DNA of 64,000 bases from Pseudomonas sp. P818 (GTDB lineage Bacteria; Pseudomonadota; Gammaproteobacteria; Pseudomonadales; Pseudomonadaceae). Position 1 is the stretch's first letter. Each line of letters starts with the position of its first letter. The stretch spans positions 1-64,000 of the forward strand of contig NZ_ATKM01000001.1 in the NCBI RefSeq assembly GCF_000418555.1, given 5' to 3'. A model generated the notes under the pieces. The model searched no databases, had not been told where the DNA came from, and saw nothing but the letters and a program-made list of their open reading frames with translations. A program made the position numbers and the translations under genes. Shown in pieces: positions 17,290-22,459 of the stretch.

Positions 17290-17826
17290 TCAGGATTTCA
17301 ACGCTTCGGCCAGCTTGTTCAGCTTGCCGCGGACCGAACCGTCGATGACCAGGTCACCTGCACGAATGACAACGCCGCCGATCAGGGCGGGATTGACCAC
17401 GGGCTTGGGCTGGACGGTGCGATCGAGCCGCTTGGAAAGGGCGGCAGCCAGAGTTTGCAATTGCTCGGTATTGAGCTCGAAAGCCGACTCGACCTCGACA
17501 TCGAGGGCGCGTTCGGCTTCAGCCTTCAGCACGGCGAACTGTTCGCGTACTACCGGCAGCAGCGACAGTCGGTCGTTGCTGCCCAGCGAGCGCAGGAAGT
17601 TGCTGAACGAAGCGTCGATGTGACCGGCACAGATCTGCGCCAGAACATTGACTTTCTGCTCATCGGTCAACGCCGGGTTGACCAACTGCTGAGCCATGGC
17701 CGGCGTTTGAACCGCAGCCGCGGACAGCGACAGCATGTTCAGCCAGGCATCGGCCTGCTGTGCAGCACTGGCAAACTCAAACGCGGCTTTCGCGTAGGGC
17801 CGAGCGAGCGTGTTGGTATTGATCAT
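17290..17826 (-). CDS. atpH: ATP synthase F1 delta subunit
   Basis: The delta subunit (OSCP equivalent) joins F1 to the peripheral stalk. The 178 residues begin MINTNTLARPYAKAAFEFA and include the C-terminal signature VVNPALIGGVVIRAGDLVIDGSV, both typical. It lies 12 nt after atpF and 15 nt before atpA. Confidence 0.98.
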   Translation of the reverse strand: MINTNTLARPYAKAAFEFASAAQQADAWLNMLSLSAAAVQTPAMAQQLVNPALTDEQKVNVLAQICAGHIDASFSNFLRSLGSNDRLSLLPVVREQFAVLKAEAERALDVEVESAFELNTEQLQTLAAALSKRLDRTVQPKPVVNPALIGGVVIRAGDLVIDGSVRGKLNKLAEALKS

Positions 17827-17838
17827 CGCGAGCCTCGC

Positions 17839-18309
17839 TTAGAGTTGAGAGGCCAGTTTTGCGACCAGATCGTTGTGCGCAGCGCCGTCCACGGAGGACT
17901 GCAGGATCTGCTCGGCGCCGGTGACAGCCAGAGCTGCTACCTGCGAACGCAGTTGATCCTTGGCACGGTTCACTTCCAGATCGATTTCGGCTTTGGCGCC
18001 AGCGATCAGCTTTTCACCTTCGGAGCGGGCCTGGGCCTTGGCTTCCTCGACGATTGCGTTGGCGGTCTTGTTCGCCCGATCGAGAATTTCGGCAGCTTGC
18101 TCTTTGGTTTCACGAAGCATCTGGGCAGCGCGTTCCTGGGCCAACTGCAGATCGCGCTCGGCGCGCCCGGCAGCATCCAGACCTTCTGCGATTTTCTTCT
18201 GGCGTTCCTGCATGGCCTGCGTCAGCGGCGGCCATACGAACTTCATGCAGAACCAGACGAAAATAGCGAAGGCAATCGTTTGACCGAACAGGGTCAGGTT
18301 AATGTTCAC
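17839..18309 (-). CDS. atpF: ATP synthase F0 b subunit
   Basis: The b subunit is the membrane-anchored peripheral stalk. The 156 residues start [29 protein letters not shown], a single N-terminal membrane helix, followed by a long charged, alanine-rich helix that dimerises. The length is the family standard. Confidence 0.98.
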
Positions 18310-18396
18310 AGCGATTTACCTCGTGCTATCTCGTGTTCCGGGGAAGAAAAGCCTGAAGAGGCAGCACACATCATGCTGCCTCGAACTCAGGAACTC

Positions 18397-18648
<252 letters not shown>

Positions 18649-18690
18649 TTAAGGTTACGAGTTAGGGGTTTTCGGGTTTTTCGATGTCGA

Positions 18691-19533
<843 letters not shown>

Positions 19534-19926
19534 TCAGAAAACTTTCATGAGCAGGGGGGCACAGGCTGCTGCCAGAAGGGCAAGCAGATACCCGATGAAC
19601 AGCTTCATCGGGTCCAGTGGTTCAACCCCTACGAACGCCAGTGCAAACAGCACTGCCGTGATAATCCATTTACCCATGGCCCCGGCCCAGATCGACTGGA
19701 CGATGGCCTTGGCCGAACGCGCGCCAAAGTAACGAAAGGCCTTGAATGCAAAATACGCGTTGGCCAGCAGGGCTATCAGCCCTCCCAGCAATGCCGAATA
19801 GGCCGCGACCCATCCGCCACTGACGGCAAAAAACACTGTGATCACAGCCGTCACGATGGCCTGAAAAATCAGGATCGGGAACCCTGGCTGACGATGAAAC
19901 TGTTGAAAAACTACCTGCGTTGCCAT
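19534..19926 (-). CDS. atpI: ATP synthase accessory protein AtpI, 5' end replaced by a repeat
   Basis: AtpI is a small membrane protein that helps assemble the c ring or take up magnesium. The body, from FHRQPGFPILIFQA to the C-terminal PLLMKVF, has four hydrophobic segments and the family motif GGLIALLANAYFAFKAFRYFGARSAKAIV. The first codons come from the repeat at 19902-20029: the ATG at 19926 lies inside it. A TTG at 20028 is also in frame and would add 34 residues. Neither has a ribosome site. Upstream of the repeat, TTG-TCG-GCC-ACG-GCA-GAC-C reads in frame into AGTTTCATCG if the repeat is removed, giving a plausible original N-terminus. Expression may be reduced, but AtpI is usually dispensable. 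Confidence 0.85.
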   Translation of the reverse strand: MATQVVFQQFHRQPGFPILIFQAIVTAVITVFFAVSGGWVAAYSALLGGLIALLANAYFAFKAFRYFGARSAKAIVQSIWAGAMGKWIITAVLFALAFVGVEPLDPMKLFIGYLLALLAAACAPLLMKVF

Positions 19927-20029
19927 TGCTGCGTTAAAAACAGGCTCGGACTGCTCATTTACAGCTTGTAAACTCCGCGTCCTCGCCTGTTTTTGCCTTG
20001 CACTGGCTGCCTCGCTTACGTTTTTCAAC
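19902..20029. mobile_element. 128-bp MITE-like inverted-repeat element in atpI
   Basis: The ends are GTTGAAAAAC (19902-19911) and GTTTTTCAAC (20020-20029), exact inverted repeats. Inside lie a second inverted pair, AAAAACAGGC near 19935 and GCCTGTTTTT near 19985, and a central TTTACAGCTTGTAAA palindrome. The whole element could fold into one long imperfect hairpin. It encodes no transposase, so it would be mobilised in trans. I see no clear target duplication. The structure and its location in a coding 5' end both support a mobile repeat. Confidence 0.8.
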
Positions 20030-20094
20030 GGTCTGCCGTGGCCGACAAAATTGCGCGGGGAGTATATGGGCCAGCCTGCGCCCGATCAACCGTG

Positions 20095-20122
20095 CTGTAG
20101 TAGGAGCGAAGTAGGACTACAG
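20095..20122. repeat. Small hairpin between parB and atpI
   Basis: CTGTAGT (20095-20101) and ACTACAG (20116-20122) are inverted repeats around AGGAGCGAAG-type sequence. The text resembles pseudomonad REP fragments (GTAGGAGCGA). It lies between the parB stop and the atpI region and could act as a weak parB terminator. Confidence 0.45.
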
Positions 20123-20133
20123 ACTGAATTGTT

Positions 20134-21003
20134 TCAACGAATGTGCGCCAGTACACCCTGCAATTCATCGAGGGAGCTGTAGCGAATCACCAGCTGACCT
20201 TTTCCCTTGCTGCCGTGCTTGATCTGCACAGGCGAGCCCAGACGCTCTGCTAGCTTCTGTTCCAGGCGACTGATATCCGGATCGGCCTTGGCCTTCACCG
20301 GCGCCGGTTTGGCACTCAGCCACTGACGCACCAGTGCCTCGGTCTGACGAACGGTAAGGCCGCGTGCGACAACATGTCGCGCCGCTTCAACCTGCTGTTC
20401 CAGGGGCAAACCGAGCAGTGCGCGGGCATGGCCCATCTCCAGATCGCCGTGGGCGAGCAGGGTCTTGATCTCCTCGGGCAGGGCGATCAGGCGCAGCAGG
20501 TTGGTGATGGTGACGCGCGACTTGCCGACGGCATCGGCGACCTGTTGCTGGGTCAGTTCGAACTCCTGCTGCAGGCGCTGCAGGGCCACGGCTTCCTCGA
20601 TCGGGTTGAGGTCCTCGCGCTGGATGTTCTCGATCAACGCCATGGCGATGGCGGCTTCATCGGGCAGCTCACGGACCATGGCCGGGATCTTGTCCTGACC
20701 GGCCAGCTGGCTGGCCCGCCAGCGCCGCTCACCCGCGACGATCTCGAAGCGGCCGTTGCCGATGGGGCGCAGCACGATGGGTTGCATCACGCCCTGGGCG
20801 CGGATCGAAGCGGCGAGTTCCTCCAGGGCGGTCTGGTCCATGTCACGACGCGGCTGGTACTTGCCGCGCTGGATCAGCTCCAGCGGCACGTATTGCAGTT
20901 CGCGCGTATCGACCTGGGCGGCCTCTTCCTGCAGTGCGCTGACGGTGTTGCCACCGAGCAGGGCGTCCAGACCTCGACCCAGACCTCGTTTCTTCGCAGC
21001 CAT
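20134..21003 (-). CDS. parB: Chromosome-partitioning protein ParB
   Basis: ParB is a CTP-dependent DNA clamp that loads at parS and spreads. The 289 residues start MAAKKRGLGRGLDALLGG, the ParA-interacting N-terminus, followed by the ParB/Srx domain with GERRWRASQLAG (GERRxR box) and ENIQREDLNPIEEA, then the helix-turn-helix (TQQQVADAVGKSRVTITNLLRL) and a C-terminal dimerisation domain. It lies 11 nt after parA. Perfect parS sites lie in recF of this window. Confidence 0.98.
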   Translation of the reverse strand: MAAKKRGLGRGLDALLGGNTVSALQEEAAQVDTRELQYVPLELIQRGKYQPRRDMDQTALEELAASIRAQGVMQPIVLRPIGNGRFEIVAGERRWRASQLAGQDKIPAMVRELPDEAAIAMALIENIQREDLNPIEEAVALQRLQQEFELTQQQVADAVGKSRVTITNLLRLIALPEEIKTLLAHGDLEMGHARALLGLPLEQQVEAARHVVARGLTVRQTEALVRQWLSAKPAPVKAKADPDISRLEQKLAERLGSPVQIKHGSKGKGQLVIRYSSLDELQGVLAHIR

Positions 21004-21014
21004 GCGGATGTTCC

Positions 21015-21803
21015 TTAAGCGGTAGCGGTTTTCGCGGCGGCGCGCTGACGGCGCACCAGCTCGCCGGCCAAGGCCAGATAGGCGATGGCACCACGGGATT
21101 GTTTGTCGTAGACCAGCGCCGGCATGCCGAAGCTCGGCGCCTCGGCCAGGCGCACGTTGCGCGGGATCACGGCGTCATACAGCTTGTCGCCGAAGTGCTG
21201 CTTGAGCTGGGCGCTGACATCGTTGGTCAGGCTGATGCGCGGGTCGTACATGGTACGCAGCAGACCTTCGATCTGCAGCTTGGGGTTGAGCAACTGGGCG
21301 ATGCGCTGAATGCTGTTGACCAGATCGGAGAGCCCTTCGAGTGCGTAGTACTCGCACTGCATGGGGATGATCACACCGTCGGCAGCGACCAGGGCGTTGA
21401 TGGTCAGCATGTTCAGCGACGGCGGGCAGTCGATGAGGATGTAGTCGTAGTTCTCGCGGATCGGCGCCAGGGCATAACGCAGGCGGCTTTCCTTCATCTT
21501 CATTTCGAGCAGGGCGACTTCGGCGGCGGTCAGGTCGCGGTTGGCCGGCAGCAGCTGATAGCCGCCATGCTCGGAGAACTGCATGGCCTGGCTCAGGTCG
21601 CACTCGCCGATCAGCACGTCGTAGATCGAATGCTCGAGGCCGTGCTTGTCCACACCGCTGCCCATGGTCGCGTTGCCCTGCGGGTCGAGGTCGATCAGCA
21701 GCACGCGGCGCTTGGTCGCCACCAGAGAAGCGGCCAGGTTGATGCACGTCGTGGTCTTGCCCACGCCGCCTTTCTGATTGGCGATCGCGAATACCTTGGC
21801 CAT
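21015..21803 (-). CDS. parA: Chromosome-partitioning ATPase ParA (Soj)
   Basis: This Walker-type ParA ATPase of 262 residues binds the nucleoid and moves ParB-parS complexes. The deviant Walker A is KGGVGKTTT (residues 11-19), with the LLIDLDPQGNAT switch and YILIDCPPSLNMLT Walker B. It lies between rsmG and parB in the usual gidA-gidB-parAB order. Confidence 0.98.
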   Translation of the reverse strand: MAKVFAIANQKGGVGKTTTCINLAASLVATKRRVLLIDLDPQGNATMGSGVDKHGLEHSIYDVLIGECDLSQAMQFSEHGGYQLLPANRDLTAAEVALLEMKMKESRLRYALAPIRENYDYILIDCPPSLNMLTINALVAADGVIIPMQCEYYALEGLSDLVNSIQRIAQLLNPKLQIEGLLRTMYDPRISLTNDVSAQLKQHFGDKLYDAVIPRNVRLAEAPSFGMPALVYDKQSRGAIAYLALAGELVRRQRAAAKTATA

Positions 21804-21815
21804 CTTCCTTCCCCC

Positions 21816-22459
21816 TTAGACCGAGCGACGCAGTATCAACAGATGGCGCTGGCCTTGGCAACCTGGAACCCGCAGCACGTGGGTGGCACTGAGACGGAAG
21901 TCCGCCGGCAGGGCCTGCAGCTCGTCATCCGGATGCACACCCTTCATGGCCAGCCAGTGCGTGTCGGCGTTACCCAGGTGGCGCGTCCAGTTGCTGAAGT
22001 CTTCAAGACTGCTGAAAGCCCGCGAGCTGATGCCGTCGAATGCCTGCTCGGGTCGATAGGCTTCGACGCGGTTGTGGACAACCTCGAGGTTGGCGAGTTT
22101 CAACTCGAGCTTCACCTGGACCAGAAAACGGGTCTTCTTGCCGTTGGAGTCGAGCAGGGTGAAACGGCGCTCGGGGAACATGATCGCCAGCGGAATACCG
22201 GGCATGCCGCCGCCGCTGCCGACGTCCAGCCAGTTATCCCCACGCTCGGCCACGAACGGCACCACCGACAGGCTGTCGAGCAGATGGCGCGAGACCATTT
22301 CGTCCGGGTCGCGCACGGCGGTGAGGTTGTAGGCCTTGTTCCACTTGATCAGCAGGCCCAGGTAGGCGAGCAGCTGTTCCTGCTGCCGCTCGCTGAGCGA
22401 GATGCGCAGTTCGCGAGCGCCCTGCAGCAGTTCTTCGGCGTGACGCTGAGTGACCGACA

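Follow-up and report, generated by a model that had tools for sequence, protein, structure and literature searches.

The Interval between parB and atpB

We analysed a stretch of 64,000 nucleotides from Pseudomonas sp. P818, hereafter the window, in which atpI lies on the reverse strand between two genes that, from their sequences, we take to be parB and atpB. The features of the interval are collected in Table 1. A promoter scan of positions 19400-20250 returned a single sigma-70-type promoter, against 0.3 expected in shuffled sequences, and its TTGATC and TATACT boxes are conserved in all 13 other aligned sequences. The atpI body, which was detected by tblastn in 20 of 20 relatives, shows few changes between the window and P. 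yangonensis. The frame in which it now lies is a fusion with upstream sequence, and the only Pfam match of this fused frame is ATP-synt_I (residues 52-148), in the atpI part. The Rfam 15 covariance models gave no matches at E<=1 in positions 19700-20300.

Table 1. Features between parB and atpB, listed in the reading direction of atpI (window positions)
Feature	Position	Strand	Basis
parB, upstream neighbour	20134..21003	-	ORF; same neighbour in 20 relatives by tblastn
Sigma-70-type promoter TTGATC-17-TATACT, 5' of atpI	20061..20089	-	consensus match only
Target duplication, left copy ACGG, 4 bp	20036..20039	-	flank reading and length arithmetic
MITE remnant, 135 of 140 bp, right end gone	19901..20035	-	P. 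guguanensis identity and own-genome copies
Left terminal inverted repeat CAGACCGTTGAAAAAC	20020..20035	-	copy alignment; consensus end CAGGCCGTTGAAAAA also on IS5-family IS
In-frame TTG, left end of the element	20026..20028	-	
Conserved hairpin core, 73 nt	19928..20000	-	covariance model R1, 100.5 bits (this core is one of the 31 copies from which R1 was built); covariation; fold
In-frame ATG within the element, would yield MATQVVFQQ-FHRQPGF...	19924..19926	-	
Right terminal inverted repeat GTTTTTCAACA, truncated, terminal GCCTG deleted	19901..19911	-	
Deletion junction, 64 bp of P. guguanensis missing, one G ambiguous	19900..19901	-	
Native atpI body, FHRQPGF to stop	19534..19899	-	Pfam ATP-synt_I, 61.1 bits
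Weak candidate GTG start, inside the native atpI sequence	19852..19854	-	
atpB, downstream, with its own start	18691..19509	-	ORF list; tblastn in relatives

A 140-bp Element Repeated across the Genome

A preliminary, sequence-only reading of the locus had described a MITE-like repeat of 128 bp at the 5' end of atpI; this repeat is genuine, and mobile. The exact 10-bp inverted repeat GTTGAAAAAC/GTTTTTCAAC on which the reading relied does enclose 128 bp (positions 19902-20029) and, given the copies elsewhere in the genome, is not a chance match; its arms fall within a 13-nt pair that is 92% complementary. The 128 bp are, however, less than the full element, since the complete form measures 140 bp, with CAG at its start and CTG at its end. 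In an alignment of 30 own-genome copies, those with the window's end type begin with CAGGCCGTTGAAAAAC and end with GTTTTTCAAC(A/G)GCCTG; the ends take the form CAGGCC(T)GTTGAAAAAC, and 140 bp is the commonest length (7 of 18 measured copies). At least 41 stretches of the genome, the window's included, match the element at E<=0.001, with 40 of the 85 candidates scored, and the pattern of its centre (up to three mismatches) occurs in 54 copies, compared with none for the reversed pattern. Within the window, no second copy of at least 40 nt was found.

The copies are frequently flanked by CTAG, TTAG, CTAA or GTAA. Among the 18 of 54 copies with both ends recognisable, 4-bp duplications of the CTAG/YTAR type are perfect in seven and agree at three or more of the four positions in 15; shuffling of the right flanks gave P=0.010 for the perfect count and P=0.003 for the summed matches. 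An empty site was compared with a filled one at atpI alone, where the duplication reads ACGG/ACAG (the right copy being taken from P. guguanensis, see below) and the length difference of 305-161=144 equals 140+4. As a target, this sequence fits CTAG poorly, and one base distinguishes the left copy from the right. The TA found beside the ends had suggested an IS630-type target, which we rejected because the 4-bp duplication and the IS5-type transposase described below speak against it.

A canonical insertion adds 144 bp, a length divisible by three, and one frame of the element is open in the window copy; insertions within genes could be tolerated in frame. Over the 54 own-genome copies, there are 24 cases, including the window's, in which a frame of the element continues into a long frame, and 3 of 10 tested frames running through copies contain a Pfam domain. 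At three loci (L010, L019 and L029), the open frame that crosses the element reaches a gene, in one case with an acyl-transferase domain, in another for an alpha/beta-hydrolase and in the third for alginate export; these frames are probably due to chance. We rejected through-running frames as evidence of fusion, since open frames are abundant in GC-rich genomes.

An IS5-Family Element with the Same Ends

The 15-bp end CAGGCCGTTGAAAAA is common to the element and to IS5-family insertion sequences of relatives; in a relative, the same ends, about 1.34 kb apart, enclose an insertion sequence carrying a transposase. Seventeen copies of the latter were found and 16 examined, of which 15 have CAGGCCGTTGAAAAA at both ends together with CTAG-like flanks, the sixteenth showing a different, longer repeat. 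The transposase occupies a 388-aa open frame in six copies in genome G012 and in eight of the nine in G276 (826 aa in the ninth). In both G099 copies (L117 and L118), it is split into the same two frames of 133 and 266 aa, which reflects either a frameshift common to both copies or programmed frameshifting. The larger piece of L117 scores 193.7 bits with NF033581 (IS5), against a cut-off of 140, and 97 bits with the IS1182 model, whose cut-off is 270; the smaller piece stays below both cut-offs and scores higher with IS1182 (57.3) than with IS5 (32). A related insertion sequence with a transposase about 51% identical ends in CAGCCTGTTGAAATTCGCC in three of the four copies examined, out of six found.

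In their CAGGCCGTTGAAAAA ends and CTAG-like flanks, the insertion sequences of relatives (about 1.34 kb; L117, L118, L151 and others) thus resemble the class A copies of the element (end classes are given below). They differ from it in carrying a transposase, in giving no match to the hairpin-core model at the four loci searched (L117, L118, L151 and L153), and in being undetected in the element's own genome, where none of 14 candidates proved to be the partner transposase at E<=1e-20. A transposase search of 12 genomes of other genera returned two fragment hits in a single genome; a DDE_Tnp_1 search gave 14 matches in five of seven genomes, and end finding around them gave no clear match to the local end type. 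We postulate that the element was moved by an IS5-family transposase.

Filled and Empty Sites in Relatives

Scanning named genomes with the atpI body yielded 12 close relatives, several of them named species of the P. mendocina/chengduensis group. In 11 of these 12 the site is empty: atpI starts with ATG GGC ATC and runs through to TTT CAT CGT, preceded by a ribosome site of the GGGAGAGG or GGGAGAAG type. The twelfth, P. guguanensis JCM 18416, carries the insertion at the same base and with a complete right end; there it occupies the 5' untranslated leader, downstream of the promoter and ahead of the ribosome site, with both that site and the native ATG intact. A genus sample of 398 genomes contained a close atpI in 15, our own included. 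The insertion is present in our own and in G324, whose leader reads like that of P. guguanensis, nine sites are empty, three are divergent and lack the element, and one was not read. In a further set of 20 relatives (of which G012 and G014 also fall within the genus-sample count), the element is absent from the site in all 20.

Compared with P. guguanensis, the window lacks 64 bp, a difference that was read directly, with one ambiguous G. The missing stretch starts with the element's last 5 bp (GCCTG), continues over ACAG, the leader and GGGAGAGG, and takes in eight codons of atpI beginning with the ATG, as far as CCCC|GTTTCATCG. The deletion hence took one copy of the target duplication, the ribosome site and the native ATG, and element sequence now runs in frame directly into the atpI body. 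The sequences themselves show that the element was inserted and at which site, that a relative carries it whole, that 64 bp were deleted and that the native start went with them; the order and mechanism of the deletion are our reconstruction.

These comparisons change the earlier description of the locus, which had the element splitting the first codons of atpI, such that its removal would rejoin TTG-TCG-GCC to AGTTTCATCG in frame. The frame statements are correct, both for this joining and for the uninterrupted reading TTG-TCG-GCC-ACG-GCA-GAC-CGT-TGA with the element in place. The joining is nevertheless a coincidence because the 64-bp deletion removed the native start: the TTG in question is not that start, and lies about 3 nt into the mRNA if transcription is assumed to begin 7 nt after the -10 box. 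Since in P. guguanensis the insertion lies in the leader and leaves the ATG untouched, and the native start was taken by the deletion, removal of the element would not restore atpI, and we reject an insertion into the atpI codons that simple removal would undo.

History of the Insertion

The element of the window and that of P. guguanensis are identical at 134 of 135 bases, compared with at most 93% identity for the other full-length copies in our genome, and for this reason a single insertion event behind both copies appears likeliest. The flanking sequence gives a more complex picture. On the 3' side of the element, the window agrees at 99-100% with P. yangonensis, which has the empty site, and the differing sites in the approximately 100 bp directly 5' of the element also follow P. 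yangonensis. Farther upstream, for about 1.5 kb, the similarity of the window to P. guguanensis equals that to P. yangonensis or exceeds it by up to 2%, and beyond that P. yangonensis is again the closer of the two. Because P. yangonensis, the closest relative on the atp side, is without the element, simple descent would require a loss in its lineage, lineage sorting or gene conversion. In a comparison of window positions ~17400-22200 with L091 and L097, the atp side shows 99-100% identity to P. yangonensis and the parAB side about 91-98%, which suggests a recombination breakpoint near the parB end.

Possibly, the window did not inherit the insertion together with P. guguanensis and received it through a short gene-conversion tract or an independent hit at the same base. 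The match of both flanks to the empty-site P. yangonensis speaks for such an origin, as does the fact that the elements differ at only 1 of 135 bases, while their flanks differ more. We nevertheless regard it as unlikely: the two insertions share base, orientation and an identity that the other full-length own-genome copies do not reach, an independent insertion at so poor a target is improbable, and a conversion tract would need to be very short. Hence, under the reading that we prefer, the insertion most likely occurred in an ancestor common to the window lineage and P. guguanensis.

Expected Effect on AtpI

The frame is open from TTG 20028 through ATG 19926 into atpI. The sequence-only reading had pointed out that the starts upstream of the conserved body lie within the element and have no good ribosome site, and the pairing energies bear this out. 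The calculated anti-SD pairing of the native ATG is -7.4 to -8.9 kcal/mol in three relatives, compared in the window with +1.5 for ATG 19926, -2.8 for TTG 20028 and -2.5 for the internal GTG. The element strand is predicted to form a single long hairpin (-54.7 kcal/mol, z -6.9) in which both element starts lie; this hairpin was not among the results of a terminator scan. With no good ribosome site for the element starts, AtpI is probably diminished or absent, although the predicted accessibility (0.40 unpaired for ATG 19926, 0.36-0.43 for native starts, 0.27 for TTG 20028) makes the window ATG resemble native starts and thus counts against a strong claim of AtpI loss; some AtpI may be produced.

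The element may instead have been co-opted as the start of atpI, with ATG 19926 initiating efficiently and providing nine new N-terminal residues without a Shine-Dalgarno site. Besides the accessibility of this ATG, such a co-option has in its favour that the frame is open and in phase, that the new N-terminus is only one residue longer than the native MGIPSKAP, and that the atpI body is undamaged, containing neither a stop nor a frameshift. Against it stand the absent anti-SD pairing and the position of the ATG inside the folded element; moreover, a frame can stay open by chance, and so little time may have passed since the deletion that the intact body, with its few changes between the window and P. 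yangonensis, would not reveal selection. We therefore consider an efficient new start improbable, though worth keeping beside the loss of AtpI.

An assembly fault behind the deletion or the fusion is very unlikely. It could be suspected from the draft state of the genome (33 contigs) and from the repetition of the element; however, the element is only 135 bp long, both flanks stand in the correct order, the junction is well within a contig of 220 kb, at 19.9 kb, and the copy of the element is specific to the atpI site. Finally, the idea that atpI in this lineage natively begins with the element sequence, which the frame open from TTG 20028 to the stop might suggest, is refuted by the absence of that sequence from the site in all 20 relatives of one set and 11 of the 12 named ones, and by its repetition across the genome. 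The same findings remove both objections that the sequence-only reading had raised against itself, namely presence of the sequence in all relatives and a lack of further copies.

Collectively, we consider it probable that an IS5-type element inserted into the leader, that a 64-bp deletion then removed the atpI start, and that AtpI is in consequence low or absent. In this sequence of events, a 140-bp non-autonomous, CTAG-targeting element of the IS5 type would have entered the 5' untranslated leader of the atp operon, behind the promoter and in front of the atpI ribosome site. The deletion would have followed later, in the window lineage, reaching from the right end of the element to codon 9 of atpI, and was probably illegitimate, with one base of microhomology. 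The starts left for initiation would all be poor, namely ATG 19926, TTG 20028 and candidates farther downstream, for example GTG 19854. AtpI output would probably be low or nil, and atpB would retain its own start.

A Hairpin Core with Changing Ends

MITEs are usually defined by their ends. The 54 own-genome copies (L001-L030, L081-L090, L120-L149, L170-L185) have a common centre and differing ends, with at least five kinds of end repeat. When assigned by eye to end classes A-E, 23 copies have the window's type, 13 AGAACCTGTTCACGATCT or similar, six GGGCGCCTCTAAAAAC, five CAGACCGTGTGAAAAC and two AGGCTCTGTACGAAAAGT, five being unclassified. Covariation was analysed in 31 of the 54 copies, after 12 had been dropped as mosaic or nested and then 11 with indels or inserts. 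In these 31, 97.5% of the cells pair in the core hairpin, compared with at most 47% when the pairing is slid; in the outer helix, 13 of 16 pairs change on both sides, and none of 500 shuffles reaches any of five measures. Among 59 matches, including those from other genomes and with related sequences treated as independent, G-U pairs and A-C mismatches in the outer helix stand at 20:3, as expected for RNA of the core strand. An Rfam search of seven core loci gave three weak matches below the cut-off, all at L186 and away from the core.

Some copies contain nested inserts at fixed places (L007, L016, L174, L176, L179 and L184, with variants L175 and L185; also L145, L175 and L179), namely TACCGATGGCGGCCCCGC near a CAAGGC motif and a palindrome, TTCGCTTCGCTCACCC..., near the loop. 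They look as though the core itself were a target or a recombination partner.

Searches with the core model found it in 55 of 145 genomes sampled from the order (E<=1e-4), in 93 of 274 from the class (E<=1e-5) and in 57 of 299 from the phylum (E<=1e-6); these samples overlap and include our own genome, and the E-values of model R1 are rough, coming from a short calibration. Many genomes hold several copies, and the core is spread across many families (L186-L254). At 60 loci outside our own genome, the end repeats were compared with a null of 3540 mismatched left-right pairs: they exceed the 95th percentile in 40 and the 99th in 18, and 20 fail. This scoring omitted L251 (for its length), L207, L211, L230, L239 and L243 (contig ends near the core), and L214 and L215. 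In 32 of the 40 passing loci, the repeats begin 34-40 nt to the left and 31-38 nt to the right of the core; from one genome to another, the repeats have different sequences. A weaker version of the comparison, with shuffled letters, placed 14 of 28 loci (our own L187 included) above the shuffle maximum. Since the spacing of the repeats is nearly fixed while the sequences of the ends vary, the architecture appears to be largely constant and the ends to change.

Three origins are conceivable for the compensatory changes: selection may act on an RNA or on a DNA hairpin, or palindromes may correct themselves during replication; the wobble bias and the near-invariant apical stem weakly favour selection on RNA. 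We tentatively put forward, as a possibility about which we remain somewhat doubtful, that the atpI element belongs to a Pseudomonadota-wide family of non-autonomous elements of about 140 bp, in which the hairpin core is kept, probably as a one-strand RNA, and the ends are exchanged to suit IS5-type transposases. The core would then be the inherited identity of the family, useful to the element or to the host.

Comparison with Known Elements

In its outer shell, the element behaves like an ordinary IS5-type MITE, close in kind to MITEPsy1 of P. syringae pv. phaseolicola, which is likewise short and non-autonomous and interrupts loci (PMC3189936). According to that report, MITEPsy1 has 18-nt terminal repeats, duplicates a CTAG or YTAA target and is probably moved by the IS5-family ISPsy2 (PMC3189936). 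It differs in its length (100 nt, against 140 bp) and in its terminal repeats, GGAAGGTCTGAAAAAGCC, so that by its ends and length the atpI element falls outside MITEPsy1; moreover, a MITEPsy1 insertion adds 104 nt and shifts the frame, whereas the 140+4=144 found here keeps it (PMC3189936).

The R0, R2 and R178 elements of P. fluorescens are also repeated intergenic hairpin elements, of which R0 and R2 have ends in common with insertion sequences (PMC2718517). R178 is 101 bp long, with an internal 11-bp inverted repeat and 18, 28 and 9 copies in three strains (PMC2718517). It is tabulated there with the internal repeat only (PMC2718517), and by this description it may or may not be the same as the hairpin core. 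QMITE1 of Coxiella burnetii resembles our family in having variable ends round a conserved core, about 50 copies and overlaps with reading frames; compared by its description, it differs in its length of 300-400 bp and in being called species-unique by its authors (PMC5896051). The palindromic elements of Rickettsia are likewise mobile palindromic repeats found in frame in protein genes; they sit in frame within coding genes (PMC10969869), while here the insertion was in a leader and the fusion was made by a deletion. An account of the core family itself was not recognised in the literature searched by sequence words and description, where the matches were mostly at the level of titles.

Implications

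The atpI event itself is ordinary, and we find the core family more interesting. AtpI helps in the assembly of the c-ring; many species do without it, and doubts have been raised about whether it is essential (PMC4154653). In Acetobacterium woodii, c-ring assembly is reported to need AtpI (PMC8904574). Given this absence from many species and the doubt about essentiality, the window locus offers a natural test of AtpI dispensability in Pseudomonas. It is also a two-step case, leader insertion followed by an adjacent deletion, in which a tolerated repeat led to the loss of a start codon in a core operon, with the intermediate still visible in a named species, P. guguanensis. If our proposal on the core is true, a family defined by a covarying core with changing ends would let one ask which part of a non-autonomous element is selected, and would raise the question of whether such elements switch transposases.
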